Assembly (NCBI GenBank): GCA_014169315.1
Contig: AP022133.1
Span: 3,286,001-3,350,000 of the forward strand
From: Enterobacter cloacae
GTDB lineage: Bacteria > Pseudomonadota > Gammaproteobacteria > Enterobacterales > Enterobacteriaceae
Direction: 5' to 3'
Length of the DNA stretch: 64,000 bases
Positions within the stretch are counted from its first letter, which is position 1, and each line of letters begins with the position of its first letter. Below the pieces are notes generated by a model. It made no database searches and was not told where the DNA came from. It worked only from the letters and a program-made list of their open reading frames with translations. Below are positions 20,859 to 26,705 of this stretch, piece by piece. Position numbers and translations under genes: made by a program.

Positions 20859-21215
20859 ATGACAGACGCGGTAAAAATTTATCACAACCCTCGCTGCTCC
20901 AAGAGCCGTGACACCCTCAGCCTGTTGAAGGCTAACGGTGTTGACCCGGAAGTGGTGTTGTACCTGGAGACTCCGCCAGACGCACAAACCCTTCGCCAGC
21001 TGCTGCACATGCTGGGCATGGGCAGTGCAAGAGCCTTGATGCGCCAGAAAGAAGACCTTTATAAGTCGCTCAGCCTGGATGACACTCGTCTCACTGAGGC
21101 TGAGCTGATCCAGGCGATGGTCGAAAATCCGAAGCTGATTGAACGTCCAATCGTGGTGGCAAATGGCCAGGCCCGCATCGGGCGGCCACCGGAAGACGTA
21201 CTCGAGATCCTCTAA
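20859..21215 (+). CDS. yfgD: YfgD, ArsC-family (glutaredoxin-type arsenate reductase-like) protein
   Basis: A 118-residue ArsC-family protein with the N-terminal Cys motif HNPRCSKSRDTL and the conserved IERPIVV strand before the C-terminus. The ArsC arginine pattern is present, but no ars operon is nearby, so arsenate reduction is uncertain. CAGGA precedes ATG 20859. It follows bepA as in E. coli. Its last four bases overlap the convergent accessory gene at 21212, which marks the junction where this genome departs from the E. coli yfgD-hda order. Confidence 0.9.
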   Translation: MTDAVKIYHNPRCSKSRDTLSLLKANGVDPEVVLYLETPPDAQTLRQLLHMLGMGSARALMRQKEDLYKSLSLDDTRLTEAELIQAMVENPKLIERPIVVANGQARIGRPPEDVLEIL

Positions 21216-22036
21216 TCCTGACGCCGCAGCGCTTCAAGAAAGGCCTGCGGCGTACTCTCTCCCAGTTTTTTCTGCGCTTTTCCCCGGTTGTAAAATTCAC
21301 ACATTTCGATCAGCACCCTTCCAACAGGTTCACGCTGCACGCGCGGAATGATCTCCCCTAACGGAAGGGTCACCTGAACGGCTTTGTGTTTTTGCGGATG
21401 CGCTTTTACAGCGATATTCCGCTCCGGCAATACCACCTCAAAACCAAAAGTCTCAAGAGATTGTATACAGGCCGGACAGACATCAAGCAGCTCACGCGTC
21501 CAGTTAACCAGCAACTGAGGCGATAACCCCGCATAGAGTCGGGCGTAGCACCAGCCGCTCACCGGTTCACGCGCCCACAGCAGATGTTGCTCTCCACCAT
21601 CCTCCATATGCAACGACAGCGGCAGATGGTGCATCACCAGTTGATGCGGCACGACGCCTGCCTTCAGCGCCTTTTTCCCCTGCAATGGCACCGCCTTTTG
21701 TTTCGCAGGCGCGGGTCTGAGATAGCGGTTCAGGGTCGCCCGGGAAACGGCGATCCCCAGCCCTTCATTAACCAGAAGCAACAGCTCATCCAGCGGCGCA
21801 CCGATGGCCTCACGCAGGACATTCACCAGAACCACCTGCTCTTGTCTCATTGCTTTGTGTATCACTTTTGGCGTGGTCTGGTTATCCGAAACCTGGTCAC
21901 GGTTGCGCCAGCGCCGGACGGTAGTAACGGAGATCCCAAGTTCGATAGCCAGCTCTCTGTCGCTTTTATCAGACTGCTGGAGGTAGCGCCGGATCCGTGG
22001 CGTGGTGGTGGCATTGGCATGCAGTTTGATTTCCAT
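21212..22036 (-). CDS. Transposase-derived helix-turn-helix protein, probable local regulator
   Basis: A 274-residue protein that resembles IS481-type transposases but looks catalytically dead. The N-terminus (about 1-50) follows the IS481 pattern: a HANATTTPRIRRYL start and a helix-turn-helix in ELAIELGISVTTVRRWRNRD. A second segment (about 65-108) matches the linker LDELLLLVNEGLGIAVSRATLNRYLR. The C-terminal YNRGKAQKKLGESTPQAFL recalls the integrase-core end. Where the first catalytic Asp normally sits (LHIDVK-like), it reads LVMHHL. No flanking inverted repeats were seen. It is divergent from the PTS operon at 22184, so local transcriptional control is inferred. I know of no functional study. 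Confidence 0.7.
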   Translation of the reverse strand: MEIKLHANATTTPRIRRYLQQSDKSDRELAIELGISVTTVRRWRNRDQVSDNQTTPKVIHKAMRQEQVVLVNVLREAIGAPLDELLLLVNEGLGIAVSRATLNRYLRPAPAKQKAVPLQGKKALKAGVVPHQLVMHHLPLSLHMEDGGEQHLLWAREPVSGWCYARLYAGLSPQLLVNWTRELLDVCPACIQSLETFGFEVVLPERNIAVKAHPQKHKAVQVTLPLGEIIPRVQREPVGRVLIEMCEFYNRGKAQKKLGESTPQAFLEALRRQD

Positions 22037-22183
22037 CGCAATGATCCCATTAACTAATCTTGTGAGATTTATATTAAACGGGCGAATGCTTTGTGACCGA
22101 TTTCACCTTTCGCTCGCCACGCTTCACTGATAATCCACAGACATAACATAAACAACACCACTCAATCTTGTACGGAGTTCACA
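22037..22183. promoter_or_regulatory. Divergent promoter region of the accessory PTS block
   Basis: 147 bases between the transposase-like gene and the EIIC gene. It should hold both promoters and any operator. I could not assign clear -35/-10 pairs or a strong palindrome by eye. Confidence 0.4.
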
Positions 22184-23503
22184 ATGAACAATGTTCTGGG
22201 ATTTCTTGAAGCAAAACTGATGCCGCTGGCGGCCAAAACGGCGCAGCAGCGCCATCTGTGTGCCATTCGCGGAGCCTACGTCTCATTCATGCCGTTTATC
22301 ATCGTCGGCTCCATTCTGCTGGTGATCTCCTCCTTCCCGAACCAAACCTATCAGCACTTTATGTCTCAGGCCTTTGGTGAAAGCTGGAGCGCCATTATAG
22401 AAATTCCGTTCAATGCGGTGTTCTCGACCATGTCTCTGTTCATTAGTTTCCTGGTGGCGTTCCGCCTGGCGGAACACTATGGGGAAGACCGCATCTCCTG
22501 CGGCATTCTGGCGCTGGTCGCGTTTCTGATCCTGACCCCGTTTATCAAAGTGGCCGAAAACGGCGGCATTACCGTGATACCCGTAGAGTGGATTGGCAGT
22601 AAAGGACTGTTCGTCGCCATGATCGGTTCGCTACTGTGGACGGAGCTGTTCTGCTGGCTGAAGCGCAAGAATCTGGTCATCAAAATGCCTGACGGTGTAC
22701 CGCCTGCAGTGCAGGAGTCTTTCGCCGCACTGATCCCTGCCCTGCTGGTGATGATTCTGGTGCTGGGTATTCGTATCGTCTTTGAAAACACCCACTACAA
22801 CACCATTCATCAATTTATTTACGAAGTGGTCGCCACGCCGGTACGCCACTACGGCACCTCTTACTTTGGCGCGCTGATGACCGTGTTCAGCATCACCATT
22901 CTGTGGTCAGTGGGTATTAACTCCGGTTCGATGATCAACGGCATTATCCGTCCGCTGTGGATGGAGAACCAGACCGACAATATTGCCGCCATTCAGGCCG
23001 GTATCACGCCGCCACATATTATTACCGAACAGTTTTTTGACATGATCTGGATGGGCGGCGCGGGCGCAACGCTGTCGCTGGTGATTGCGATGCTGATTTT
23101 TGCCCGCAGTAAAAACATGCGTGAAGTGGCGCGGCTGGGTGCGGGTGCTTCGGTGTTCAACATCAACGAACCGATTCTGTTTGGCCTGCCGGTGATCATG
23201 AACCCGATCATGCTCATCCCGTTCAACCTGGTACCGCTGGTGCTGGTCACCGTGCAATATGCCGCCATGAAAATTGGTGCGGTCGCCGTCACAACCGGGG
23301 TCTTTATCCCCTGGACGCTGCCGCCTGTCATCAGCGGCTTTATCGTCACGGGACATCTTAGCGGCAGCGTCATGCAGCTTATCAATCTGCTGATTGGTGC
23401 CATGCTGTACCTGCCTTTCATGCGTATTGTGGATAAACAATACCGCGCAGCGGAAATTGCCACCGTTACGCAAACCGACACGACACTTGCAAAACAGGAG
23501 TAA
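22184..23503 (+). CDS. PTS EIIC permease, lactose/cellobiose (ChbC/CelB) family
   Basis: A 439-residue membrane protein of the PTS lactose/cellobiose EIIC family with about ten transmembrane helices. The conserved EIIC substrate motif is visible as FNINEPILFGLPVIMNP (Glu near residue 331). ATG 22184 has a modest upstream purine stretch. No EIIA or EIIB gene lies next to it, so the EIIB/EIIA partners would have to come from another locus, such as the chitobiose system. The asparaginase gene follows after 3 bases. The substrate is unknown; a glycoside linked to GlcNAc or Asn is inferred from the next gene only. Confidence 0.85.
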   Translation: MNNVLGFLEAKLMPLAAKTAQQRHLCAIRGAYVSFMPFIIVGSILLVISSFPNQTYQHFMSQAFGESWSAIIEIPFNAVFSTMSLFISFLVAFRLAEHYGEDRISCGILALVAFLILTPFIKVAENGGITVIPVEWIGSKGLFVAMIGSLLWTELFCWLKRKNLVIKMPDGVPPAVQESFAALIPALLVMILVLGIRIVFENTHYNTIHQFIYEVVATPVRHYGTSYFGALMTVFSITILWSVGINSGSMINGIIRPLWMENQTDNIAAIQAGITPPHIITEQFFDMIWMGGAGATLSLVIAMLIFARSKNMREVARLGAGASVFNINEPILFGLPVIMNPIMLIPFNLVPLVLVTVQYAAMKIGAVAVTTGVFIPWTLPPVISGFIVTGHLSGSVMQLINLLIGAMLYLPFMRIVDKQYRAAEIATVTQTDTTLAKQE

Positions 23504-23506
23504 AGC

Positions 23507-24466
23507 ATGTGGGGAATTATCGCAACCTGGCGAATGGCGCTGGAGGGAGTCACAGAGTCTGCGTCTGCGCTGGCTGCGGGGAAACCGGTCGCCGCCGCAG
23601 TGGTCGATGCCGTTGCTACCGTAGAGGACTTCCCGTTTTATAAATCCGTCGGCTACGGCGGGCTGCCTACCGAGAATGGCGAAGTCGAACTGGACGCAGC
23701 TTACATGGATGGCGACACGCTGGCTTTTGGTGCCGTGGGCAACCTGGTGGATATTGCCAACCCGGTACGTGTGGCCCACGCGCTGAGTCGCCAGCGCTAT
23801 AACAGCCTGCTGGTTGGCCAGGGCGCACGCGAATGGGCGCTGAGCCAGGGCTTTACCGACAAAACCATGCTGACCGACCGCGCAATGCAACATTACCGCA
23901 AGCGCTGCCGTGAAACGCTGGATAAAGGTTTAAGCCCGTACGATGGCCACGACACGGTCGGGATTATTGGCCTCGACAAGCAGGGGTCGATGAGCGTGGC
24001 GACCTCCACCAGCGGCCTGTTTATGAAAAAACGTGGTCGTATTGGCGACTCACCGATTATTGGCTCCGGGTTTTACTGCGACAGCGAAACCGGTGCCGCC
24101 ACCGCCACTGGCGTTGGCGAAGACCTGATGAAAGGCTGCACCAGCTACGAAATCGTCCGCCGCATGGCTCAGGGCATGTCACCGCAGCAGGCAGCAGACT
24201 CGGTAGTGTTTGAACTGGAAGACAAGCTGATGTCACGTTTTGGCCGCGCGGGCGATCTCTCGGTGGTATGCATGAACAACAAAGGCGAATTCGGGGCGGC
24301 GACTAACATCAAAACCTTTTCGTTTGTGGTAGCCACGGCCCGTCAGCCACTCACCGTATTTCGCACCGAGCGCCAGCGCGAGAAGACCCATTATCAGGCC
24401 GTCGATGATGAATGGATGCAGGCCTATGCCGAGCGTATCCGCGCGCCGATTGAGGAACAATCATGA
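23507..24466 (+). CDS. N4-(beta-N-acetylglucosaminyl)-L-asparaginase family Ntn-hydrolase (glycosylasparaginase/isoaspartyl peptidase)
   Basis: A 319-residue Ntn-hydrolase precursor of the asparaginase-2 family. The autoproteolysis site and nucleophile are visible as the Asp-Thr pair in GHDTVGIIGLD; Thr150 becomes the new N-terminus, giving alpha and beta subunits. Downstream GRIGDSPIIGSGFY and the Gly-rich GAATATGVGEDL form the substrate pocket seen in glycosylasparaginases. The expected reaction is hydrolysis of GlcNAc-Asn to aspartate and GlcNAc-amine; isoaspartyl or plain asparaginase activity is possible. There is no clear signal peptide, so it is probably cytoplasmic. AGGAG precedes the ATG and the stop overlaps the next gene (ATGA). 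Confidence 0.85.
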   Translation: MWGIIATWRMALEGVTESASALAAGKPVAAAVVDAVATVEDFPFYKSVGYGGLPTENGEVELDAAYMDGDTLAFGAVGNLVDIANPVRVAHALSRQRYNSLLVGQGAREWALSQGFTDKTMLTDRAMQHYRKRCRETLDKGLSPYDGHDTVGIIGLDKQGSMSVATSTSGLFMKKRGRIGDSPIIGSGFYCDSETGAATATGVGEDLMKGCTSYEIVRRMAQGMSPQQAADSVVFELEDKLMSRFGRAGDLSVVCMNNKGEFGAATNIKTFSFVVATARQPLTVFRTERQREKTHYQAVDDEWMQAYAERIRAPIEEQS

Positions 24467-25887
24467 TTACCTGGCAACTCATCACGACACTTTCAGATGC
24501 TCAACCGCAAAGTCATTTAATTGCCCGCACCACCAGCACGTTGCTGCCGGAGACGGCACTCATTGCTGAAATGCGGGAGCAGAAAACCGTCGCCGATACC
24601 CGGTTCGGCTGCGCCCCCTTTGCCCGAGTCACGCTGCTGCCGGATACGCTCTGGCAGGACAGCCTGACCGAAGGTTTACTGACCGCGCTGCGTCCGCTGC
24701 TTGCCTCACCCGTGAGTGCGAACGTCGTGCTGGATGCCACAGAAATCGACGACGTTGTTCTGACACAGGTGCTGCGTTTTCTCTTTAATCAGGCGCACAG
24801 GCTCAGCGATCTGCAGCTAAAGAAAAGCGATGAAACGGCAGTGCGCCTGCGCCACATTACCGCCCTTTGCCGCCCGGAACAGCAACAAAAGCTGGAAACA
24901 ATCTTCCACCAGCAGCAGGTTATTGCCCGTGGCATGGTCGCCGCACGGCGTCTGGCAGATACACCTTCCGATCGGTGTACTCCACAGTTTGTGGTGGAAG
25001 AGGCGAAAAAATTGTGCGGAGCCTTCCCTGCTCTGCAATGTGAAATCCTCGATGAGAAGCAGATCGTCGCGCAGGGGTTAGGGTTACTGCATGCCGTTGG
25101 CAAAGGGGCCTCCAGCCCGCCGCGGCTGCTGGCCATTCACTACAACGGCGTGGATGACGGCCCGGTGCGCTGCTATGTAGGCAAAGGCATTACCTTTGAT
25201 ACCGGCGGTCTGTGGCTGAAAGAGGGTGCGGGCATGTACACCATGAAATATGACATGTGTGGTGCGGCAAACGTGCTGGGGCTGATGCTTACCGTCGCAG
25301 AGCTGGGCCTGCCCGTTCGCATAATGGGCGTGCTGGCGCTGGCGGAAAATGCCATCGGGCCGGATGCCATGCAGCCGGGAACGGTTGCTCGCGCCTGTAA
25401 CGGCCTGACGGTAGAAATCAACAATACTGATGCCGAAGGGCGACTGGTGCTGGCGGACGCCATTGCCTGGGCCAGTCAGCGTCACCCGGATGCACATTTT
25501 ATTATTGATATGGCGACCCTGACAGGTGCAGTAGTGAAAGCGCTGGGGTATGAGCTGAGCGGATTGATGACGCAGGATGAACCGTTACGTCAGGCGCTAA
25601 CATCGGCAGGTCAACAGAGCGGTGATGAAGTGTGGTCCCTGCCACTGGATGCACGGCTGAAAAAGCAGACCGACAGCGCCATCGCCGATTTGTGCAACAC
25701 GCCGACCAATAATGCGGCAATCAGCGCGTCGGCGGCCTGGCTGCTCCACCATTTCTGCCCACCAGACATTCCGTGGGCGCATCTGGATATTAGCGGGACG
25801 GCATTGTGGCGCGAGAGTGGCAGAAGCGTGGCATCAGGCAGGCCGATTCCACTGCTGATTGAGCACTTACTGGGGGATATTGCCTGA
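24463..25887 (+). CDS. M17 leucyl aminopeptidase family protein
   Basis: A 474-residue M17 zinc/manganese aminopeptidase. The C-terminal catalytic domain shows all the usual motifs: VGKGITFDTGGLWLKEG (metal Lys and Asp), MKYDMCGAANVLG, and the signature NTDAEGRLVLADA (about residues 325-337). The N-terminal domain is divergent from PepA. Its start overlaps the asparaginase stop by four bases (ATGA), so the two are coupled. The family removes N-terminal amino acids from short peptides. Next to a glycosylasparaginase, a role in stripping residues around a glycosylated Asn is a reasonable inference but not shown. Confidence 0.85.
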   Translation: MITWQLITTLSDAQPQSHLIARTTSTLLPETALIAEMREQKTVADTRFGCAPFARVTLLPDTLWQDSLTEGLLTALRPLLASPVSANVVLDATEIDDVVLTQVLRFLFNQAHRLSDLQLKKSDETAVRLRHITALCRPEQQQKLETIFHQQQVIARGMVAARRLADTPSDRCTPQFVVEEAKKLCGAFPALQCEILDEKQIVAQGLGLLHAVGKGASSPPRLLAIHYNGVDDGPVRCYVGKGITFDTGGLWLKEGAGMYTMKYDMCGAANVLGLMLTVAELGLPVRIMGVLALAENAIGPDAMQPGTVARACNGLTVEINNTDAEGRLVLADAIAWASQRHPDAHFIIDMATLTGAVVKALGYELSGLMTQDEPLRQALTSAGQQSGDEVWSLPLDARLKKQTDSAIADLCNTPTNNAAISASAAWLLHHFCPPDIPWAHLDISGTALWRESGRSVASGRPIPLLIEHLLGDIA

Positions 25888-25894
25888 GTTTTTT

Positions 25895-25980
25895 GCCGGG
25901 TGGCGCTGCGCTTACCCGGCCTACGGTTATGCGCACGCGGGTACCCTCACCCCGGCCCTCCCCCAAAAAGCTGAGGGAGA
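25895..25980. repeat. REP-like palindrome plus CCCTC-type repeat between the aminopeptidase gene and hda
   Basis: 25895-25920 is a 26-base REP unit with arms GCCGGGT / ACCCGGC and a central GCGCTGCGC. A near-identical unit lies at 32477-32502. 25942-25980 holds a degenerate CCCTCACCCCGGCCCTCCC / GAGGGAG palindrome. Both lie between convergent genes and may work as terminators. Confidence 0.7.
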
Positions 25981-25988
25981 AAGGCACA

Positions 25989-26705
25989 TCAAAGCTTCAG
26001 AATGTCTTTCACAAACGGAATGGTCAGCTTACGCTGGGCGGTAATAGAGGCGCGATCGAGTTGGTCAAGCGTATCAAACAGCGTGCGCATTTCCCGGTCA
26101 AGACGCTTCAGCAGGAAACGCCCCACGTCTTCCGGCAGTTCAAACCCGCGCAGTCTTGCCCGCAGCTGTAGCGCCTGAAGTTTGTCTTCATCAGACAGCG
26201 GTTGCAGCTTATAAATTTGCCCCCAGTCCAGACGAGAAGCCAGATCCGGCAACCCCAGATTGAGCTGGCGCGGCGGACGATCGCCGGTGATCAGCAACCG
26301 GGTTTTCCCCGATTCCAGAATACGGTTATAGAGGTTGAAGATCGCCATTTCCCACGGTTCATCCCCCGCCATACATTCGATATTATCGATGCAGACCAGT
26401 GAGAGATGTTCCATTCCCTCCAGCACTTCAGGCACAAACCAGGTACGTTTATCCAGCGGCACATAGCCTACTGCATCACCCCGCGCAGAAAGTTCTGCAC
26501 AGGCGGCATGCAACAGGTGGCTGCGCCCCGCGCCTTCGCGTGACCAGATATAGATGTATCCGCTGTGTTCCTGGCGCAGCACGTTTTGCAGTGCAGCCAG
26601 TAAAGAGGGGTTATCACCCGGCCAGAAACTCGCGAAAGTTTCATCGTCAGGTAAATAGAGTGGCAGAGAAAGCTGTGCCGGTCCGTTCAGAAGTACCTCA
26701 ACCAG
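25989..26705 (-). CDS. hda: DnaA inactivator Hda (CTG start)
   Basis: A 238-residue AAA+ protein that, with the DNA-loaded beta clamp, promotes DnaA-ATP hydrolysis and so limits replication initiation. The clamp-binding motif QLSLPL is at about residues 11-16. The AAA+ core shows Walker A-like [12 protein letters not shown], Walker B LVCIDNIE, sensor 1 LLITGDRPP and an R-finger region ASRLDWG. The start is CTG 26705: an in-frame TAA lies two codons upstream, and no ATG, GTG or TTG occurs before GTG at residue 42. That GTG would lose the clamp-binding motif. A second CTG at 26690, in line with the E. coli 233-residue form, is the other candidate. Confidence 0.9.

Follow-up and report, generated by a model that had tools for sequence, protein, structure and literature searches.

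An EIIC-glycosylasparaginase-aminopeptidase operon of Enterobacter cloacae and its relatives as a proposed system for uptake and cleavage of GlcNAc-asparagine

A 64,000-nucleotide stretch of Enterobacter cloacae DNA (contig AP022133.1, positions 3,286,001 to 3,350,000 of the forward strand; hereafter, the window) carries a three-gene operon encoding the permease EIIC of a phosphotransferase system (PTS), a glycosylasparaginase (AGA) and an M17-family aminopeptidase, together with a divergent gene for a helix-turn-helix (HTH) protein. The block was found to be conserved in Enterobacterales and to have counterparts in Firmicutes. On balance, it is considered probable that it is a CRP-controlled PTS for N-acetylglucosamine-asparagine (GlcNAc-Asn), probably also in the form of short GlcNAc-Asn peptides, with EIIB and EIIA acting in trans, trimming by the M17 enzyme, cleavage by AGA and a transposase-derived regulator. 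The sequences themselves show which genes are present, their linkage and co-occurrence, the conservation of catalytic residues, the CRP-like site and the Asn signature; we infer the substrate, its phosphorylation, the in-trans EIIB and EIIA, the role of the regulator and the order of the steps.

The substrate would be the stub left when endoglycosidases and proteases degrade N-glycoproteins. The chitobiose-like EIIC, which carries Asn at position 246, would import GlcNAc-Asn while GlcNAc is phosphorylated at C6, with EIIB and EIIA provided in trans, the probable source being either an orphan pair located between rpoC and thiH or ChbB/ChbA. The M17 enzyme would strip N-terminal residues to leave Asn with a free amino group. 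AGA, acting in the cytoplasm, would then cut the sugar-Asn amide to give aspartate and 1-amino-GlcNAc-6-phosphate, which would decay to ammonia and GlcNAc-6-phosphate for NagA, and the divergent protein would act as a local regulator. NagA is encoded in the source genome, and the non-enzymatic breakdown of 1-amino-GlcNAc is described in the accessible text of a study of Lactobacillus casei (Becerra et al. 2020, PMC6960285).

AGA matched the Asparaginase_2 profile (PF01112) with E 9.8e-64. Its closest solved relatives are bacterial glycosylasparaginases, 1p4k scoring 189 bits over residues 4-275, whereas solved entries of the isoaspartyl-peptidase type scored at most 120.5 bits. The TWRM and HDT motifs were kept in 81 of 81 aligned AGAs, and the GR.GDS and ATGxGE motifs were kept too; Thr150 of HDT is presumably the autocleavage Thr of an N-terminal nucleophile (Ntn) hydrolase, and the presumed ligand residues of glycosylasparaginases are likewise retained. 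Trp8 aligned with a Trp of 1p4k that has no equivalent in the isoaspartyl-peptidase-type protein of the source genome, and we take it to be the pocket Trp near the N-terminus of glycosylasparaginases, which isoaspartyl peptidases lack. By these comparisons the hydrolase scores clearly as a glycosylasparaginase, its predicted activity. It is also predicted to be cytoplasmic because the protein starts at an AGA-like N-terminus, with no N-terminal extension.

It is very improbable that the operon is a chance assembly in which the hydrolase, as an isoaspartyl peptidase or asparaginase, works with the M17 enzyme on damaged peptides and the EIIC carries an unrelated beta-glucoside. PF01112 does include both activities, and the best NCBIfam match of AGA is a beta-aspartyl-peptidase model, though at 116 bits it is far under the cut-off of 567. 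The gap between 189 and 120.5 bits speaks against such an enzyme. So does the presence in the source genome of a second, better-scoring PF01112 gene of the isoaspartyl-peptidase kind (C1:1409466), whose product is 31% identical to AGA, and EIIC goes with AGA in two phyla, the genome sets of the two being identical.

The conservation of the block was studied at two levels. A scan of genome contigs gave 346 relatives, and loci were counted in the best 80, with features chained within 1.5 kb. The order EIIC-AGA-M17 with the divergent HTH gene was found in 46 loci, the same arrangement followed by EIIB-EIIA in 7, EIIC-AGA-M17 with the HTH gene downstream in 7, EIIC-AGA-M17-EIIB in 4, EIIC-AGA-EIIB-EIIA in 4 (Vibrionaceae) and M17-EIIC-AGA-CutC in 1; the remaining 11 loci were from Firmicutes. 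An HTH relative was present in 68 of the 80 loci and was missing from L070 and the 11 Firmicute loci. Relatives of yfgD and hda flanked the unit in 40 loci, and in the Klebsiella oxytoca group, Hafnia, Serratia, Providencia and further loci it occupied other chromosomal sites.

Among 295 genomes of the family, orthologues were called at identities of at least 65% for AGA and at least 72% for EIIC and at E 1e-15 for the HTH protein. The three sets were identical, comprising the same 32 genomes; therefore, the association of EIIC, AGA and the HTH protein is more than chance. An M17 gene, read from the DNA, adjoined AGA in all 32. The arrangement was EIIC-AGA-M17 with the divergent HTH gene in 23 genomes (in one of these, G134, EIIC reads in two pieces), the same with EIIB-EIIA in 4, EIIC-AGA-M17 with the HTH gene downstream in 3 and EIIC-AGA-M17-EIIB with the HTH gene downstream in 2. 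An AGA-like match of 47% identity in another genome (G264) was left out. The linkage of the three genes, which the initial annotation had noted in the window, is thus conserved across Enterobacterales; homologues lacking a conserved linkage, one of the outcomes that the annotation had named as refuting its idea, were not what the search showed.

Other parts of that annotation were borne out as well. The ORF coordinates (Table 1) confirmed the tight packing of EIIC, AGA and M17, with a gap of 3 bases followed by a 4-base ATGA overlap, and the placement of the block between yfgD and hda with the HTH gene divergent. Neither EIIA nor EIIB adjoins EIIC in the window, and the block gave 0 matches in 20,395 E. 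coli records at the sensitivity of megablast, in line with the proposal that it has no counterpart there. Profile searches upheld all three family assignments. The M17 protein matched Peptidase_M17 (PF00883) with E 2.3e-104 and retained GKGITFDTGG, KYDMCGAA and NTDAEGR, which we take to be the metal-ligand and catalytic motifs of the family. Directly 3' of its stop codon, positions 25888-25990 hold a GC-rich palindromic sequence that by eye resembles repetitive extragenic palindromes or bacterial interspersed mosaic elements (REP/BIME).

Table 1. Features of the block and its flanks, in window positions (ORF, open reading frame).
Feature	Position	Strand	Basis
yfgD, flank on one side of the block	20859-21215	+	ORF list
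Candidate transposase-derived HTH regulator, 274 amino acids, N-terminal HTH and RNase H-like integrase core	21212-22036	-	
CRP-like site, TGTGA-N6-TCACC	22092-22107	+	
GATAAT, -10-like hexamer of the inferred operon promoter	22129-22134	+	Conserved block in intergenic alignment
Lac-family PTS EIIC, 439 amino acids	22184-23503	+	Profiles and 3qnq match
Codon of EIIC Asn246, replacing a conserved His	22919-22921	+	
Codon of EIIC Glu329, NINEP motif, conserved	23168-23170	+	
Glycosylasparaginase-type Ntn-hydrolase (AGA), 319 amino acids	23507-24466	+	Profile, structure-sequence match, motif alignment
Codon of AGA Thr150, predicted autocleavage/catalytic Thr (HDT)	23954-23956	+	Alignment to 1p4k
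M17 leucyl-aminopeptidase family protein, 474 amino acids	24463-25887	+	Profile and motif alignment
hda, flank on the other side of the block	25989-26582	-	ORF list

Some of the Firmicute loci hold a member of the same AGA family together with a Lac-type EIIC and peptidases of the M20 or M42 family, EIIC being present in 6 of 11. In the loci that have EIIC, the set comprises EIIA and/or EIIB, EIIC, a GRDB-like protein of 174 amino acids, AGA, an M20 peptidase and mostly CutC. In Enterococcus gilvus the order is GntR, Sapep dipeptidase, AGA, EIIB, EIIC, EIIA, and in Latilactobacillus curvatus it is AGA, GntR, GRDB-like protein, EIIC, dipeptidase, with neither EIIB nor EIIA beside them; among the matches listed, 118 of 120 homologues of the L. 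curvatus AGA have a second basic residue after FMK, a position that might bind a phosphate. Because each lineage pairs the same hydrolase with a different peptidase family, the sequences argue that the peptide step belongs to the function of the AGA unit. Together with the glycosylasparaginase scores and the conserved association with a Lac-type PTS and a peptidase, this recurrence in Firmicutes supports the earlier suggestion that the block serves uptake of a glyco-asparagine or glycopeptide.

Two further features of these loci were observed. Several Firmicute loci and one Oceanospirillales locus (L070 8954-9694; L072, L073, L075-L079, L081, L082) have a CutC-family gene 3' of AGA or of the associated peptidase gene, and CutC may take part in the metabolism of glyco-asparagine or amino sugars. 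The GRDB-like protein, of about 174 amino acids, stands beside AGA in clostridia and L. curvatus (L073 5062-5586, L080 7444-7968, L192 8695-9219); that of L073 matches the first half of the PF07355 profile.

One of the Firmicute loci (L073) adds a ChbF-type GH4 gene, a ChbG-type YdjC gene and two M42 peptidase genes, and another (L079) adds GH4 and YdjC. These clusters fit an alternative in which the system takes up chitobiosyl-Asn (GlcNAc2-Asn) or peptides bearing it, with phosphorylation of the outer GlcNAc, so that AGA would free chitobiose-6-phosphate and the chromosomal chb operon (ChbG, ChbF) would complete the pathway. The alternative also agrees with the chitobiose/cellobiose class of the EIIC and with the joint occurrence of chb-type EIIA, EIIC and GH4 genes in the source genome. 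However, GH4 or YdjC relatives of those in L073 were in the cluster at only 2 of 80 loci, and the ega (enterococcal glycosylasparaginase) locus of E. faecalis is titled as using GlcNAc-Asn itself (Combret et al. 2024, Res Microbiol 175:104169). Chitobiosyl-Asn is therefore a rather unlikely substrate.

The initial annotation knew of no described pathway with this make-up; this needs correcting as far as the general type is concerned, which is already described in Gram-positives, in E. faecalis (ega) and L. casei (alf-2). The nearest described system is ega, which in the portion of text available comprises glycosylasparaginase, EIIB, EIIC, a dipeptidase, GntR and a pseudogene of a putative oxidoreductase (PMC11160706). 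Both ega and the window link a glycosylasparaginase to a Lac/cellobiose-type EIIC and a peptidase. As far as that text goes, ega differs in having EIIB beside EIIC, GntR, a dipeptidase and the oxidoreductase pseudogene. In the window, M17 and a transposase-derived regulator stand in place of the dipeptidase and GntR, a CRP-like site is present, and EIIB and EIIA are lacking, though some related loci do carry EIIB.

The alf-2 cluster of L. casei consists, in the text accessible, of AsnA2, pepV, AlfH, AlfC, SugK and AlfR2 (PMC6960285). It resembles the window in having a cytoplasmic glycosylasparaginase, AsnA2, and a linked peptidase gene, pepV, for glyco-asparagine, and it differs in the major facilitator superfamily (MFS) permease AlfH, the fucosidase AlfC, the GlcNAc kinase SugK, the regulator AlfR2 and the fucosylated substrate. 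According to the same text, L. casei, with its MFS permease, needs both the kinase and the fucosidase, and plain GlcNAc-Asn gave no growth. A profile search of the four genes of the block found no MFS permease, alpha-fucosidase or kinase. The absence of a kinase and a fucosidase may be explained by PTS uptake, which would deliver GlcNAc-6-phosphate-Asn; core alpha-1,6-fucose would presumably block C6. For the enterobacterial unit, no description was recognised among the papers listed by a literature search that had most subscription journals outside its reach.

The EIIC matched PTS_EIIC (PF02378) with E 7.4e-60 and 203.1 bits against a cut-off of 30.7, as well as TIGR00410 (440.5 bits, cut-off 236); the cellobiose model TIGR00359 was barely passed (440.5 against 434.45). 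Its match to 3qnq, a cellobiose-type PTS IIC that we take to be B. cereus ChbC, had E 1.7e-110, so that the chitobiose (chb) PTS and the window have a common EIIC family and fold. They differ in that the ChbC of the source genome has His where the block EIIC has Asn and that the window operon is without phospho-glycosidase and deacetylase genes. INEP, with the essential Glu of the NEP/GITEP motif, was present in 76 of 76 AGA-linked EIICs, and Asn stood opposite the His of the 3qnq GIH motif in the same 76 (the window and 75 loci) and in both plasmid-borne ones, thus in 78 of 78. One of these loci, L074, has about 5 kb, including an opposite-strand gene, between EIIC and AGA. Asn was likewise seen in 119 of 120 homologues listed for the E. 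gilvus EIIC, the remaining one having no visible motif. One of these homologues, P0258, is named E. faecalis; it shares 82% identity with the EIIC that is linked to AGA in E. gilvus, bears the same Asn and is presumably the ega EIIC.

At the position of Asn246, 79 other EIIC rows showed 75 His, 3 Asn and 1 gap. These rows were the best 30 of 98 matches (24 genomes), 1 partial second reading frame, 45 of 50 non-block matches (14 genomes; the other 5 were short or multi-domain) and 3 from the source genome, after removal of 15 of 94 comparison rows as block EIICs (L120, L193-L206); they are often close relatives and represent few independent cases. No AGA relative was found around the comparison EIICs in 82 loci of 1.4-13 kb each, many of the stretches being short. 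Asn is not exclusive to AGA-linked EIICs; the three exceptions (L218, L244, L249) form one Peptostreptococcaceae subfamily. These EIICs adjoin a conserved protein of about 205 amino acids, with no AGA relative near (neighbourhoods L256-L258), and the subfamily may carry another unusual substrate.

In a profile-profile alignment (probability 73%, E 3.2e-5), Asn246 stood opposite the GLH motif of the Glc-family EIICs of the source genome, and the NEP Glu stood opposite GITEP. From this alignment, the position of Asn246 is assumed to be that of the HP1b His and of the PtsG His. The accessible text on the former implicates it in phosphotransfer and notes its high conservation across the superfamily (PMC12900739), and that on PtsG simulations reports contacts of glucose OH-6 with H211, H212 and E298 (PMC11393339). 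In the EIIC tree, Asn fell into two separate clades, with two changes in 200 of 200 bootstrap trees and with long-branch warnings; the strongly supported branches alone are compatible with one origin of Asn.

Relatives carry EIIB and EIIA within the operon, as in the 7 EIIC-AGA-M17-EIIB-EIIA and the 4 Vibrionaceae loci. In the source genome, an orphan Lac-type EIIB-EIIA pair with no EIIC beside it lies outside the window (G000 C1:202776-203381; L114 1480-2106), between genes named by eye as rpoC and thiH. Across genomes only the EIIB of this pair was searched, EIIA and the rpoC-thiH position being known from the source genome alone. Of the 295 genomes, 66 had an orthologue of this EIIB at an identity of at least 86%. 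It was present in all 23 block genomes with the divergent HTH gene and neither EIIB nor EIIA in the operon, in all 5 with the HTH gene downstream and no operon EIIA and in none of the 4 whose operon is full. In 25 block genomes reached by locus, it accompanied all 15 operons without EIIA or without both genes, and 1 of the 10 full operons (L050). It is plausible that the orphan pair serves the EIIC in trans, with ChbB/ChbA as the alternative. As a firm claim, a dedicated partnership of this pair with the EIIC was rejected, given that its EIIB is spread over 66 genomes and the block is missing from 38 of these. Since some genomes, such as G262, G056 and G186, carry a different EIIC no more than a few hundred bases from the orphan-type EIIB, the pair may have its origin in another PTS.

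These counts also bear on an alternative in which the EIIC is a non-phosphorylating facilitator that needs no EIIB or EIIA, the His-to-Asn change uncoupling transport, and free GlcNAc is later phosphorylated by a kinase. The lack of EIIB and EIIA in the operon of the window lineage, and beside the AGA-linked EIIC of L. curvatus, fits this idea, as does Asn at the phosphotransfer position in 78 of 78 AGA-linked EIICs. However, EIIB and EIIA still adjoin Asn-EIICs in Vibrionaceae, in loci of the Hafnia/Serratia/Providencia type, in some clostridia and in E. gilvus, and wherever the operon is missing EIIA or both genes, the genome has the orphan-pair EIIB. A facilitator is accordingly judged distinctly unlikely. 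Little credence is likewise given to the wider scenario in which glyco-asparagine EIICs swapped His for Asn, apparently twice, the window lineage imports GlcNAc-Asn unphosphorylated, so that EIIB and EIIA could be dropped, and a domesticated transposase, catalytically dead, controls a PTS permease that has become a facilitator.

Several points weigh against a phosphorylating GlcNAc-Asn PTS. The EIIC lacks the hallmark phosphotransfer His, so that standard phosphorylation is not certain; this weakens the claim of standard phosphorylation and leaves Lac-family membership by profile intact. The orphan-pair EIIB has orthologues in 38 of 295 genomes without the block, it is 42-49% identical to operon-borne EIIBs, and its association with the block is confounded by ancestry, which alone could yield it. 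No EIIC was found in the fetched stretch of 5 of the 11 Firmicute AGA loci (four contigs of one strain, L075-L078, and L082), where AGA occurs with CutC. The role of the proteobacterial members is deduced from sequence, and acceptance of a 6-phosphorylated substrate by AGA is a supposition. Finally, the linked peptidase PepV was dispensable for use of the glycoamino acid in L. casei, according to the text available (PMC6960285).

The HTH protein matched HTH profiles under their cut-offs and IS481/IS21 transposase profiles at 2.3e-7 and 2.5e-5, far under the cut-offs, and had 0 matches in a PDB sequence search. With IS481/IS21-type DDE transposases (IstA) it shares an HTH and an integrase-like core, by weak profile match and fold. 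Unlike them, it gave a single match per genome, only in the 32 operon-bearing genomes, and its presumed catalytic acidic (DDE) residues appear not to be conserved: they vary across 28 aligned relatives and are missing in the window protein, with uncertain column mapping between two subgroups. A passing transposon remnant was rejected as an explanation since the gene gave one match per genome, its distribution over the 295 genomes coincides with the 32 that have EIIC and AGA, and it lies beside the operon at other sites too. The view of this gene as transposase-derived and divergent holds, with the correction that it is a member of the conserved unit and not a chance neighbour. From these features, the divergent DDE-transposase relative is likely the local regulator of the operon.

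In the divergent intergenic region, a CRP-like site with at most 2 mismatches was found in 51 of 54 cases (the window and 53 loci), compared with 5.9% of base shuffles of the window region. The site is centred at about -41.5 from the start inferred from the -10-like hexamer GATAAT. This hexamer was not picked up by a generic sigma-70 scan, and in the promoter/terminator scan the number of sites did not exceed that in shuffles. A second conserved block, at positions 22054-22085 (AACTAATC.TATGAGAT.TATAT-like), lies between the start of the HTH gene and the CRP-like site and is a candidate operator for the HTH protein.

These findings point to salvage of the sugar-asparagine stub of N-glycoproteins in Proteobacteria, descriptions found so far being from lactobacilli and enterococci. 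The Asn-for-His change in the EIIC is a one-residue marker that may predict glyco-asparagine transport among PTS permeases labelled 'cellobiose', and the difference offers a clear mutational test of what the EIIC His does. The unit is also an example of a PTS in which EIIB and EIIA may have departed from the operon stepwise, and of a DDE-transposase relative that has been retained and likely serves a sugar operon as its local regulator.

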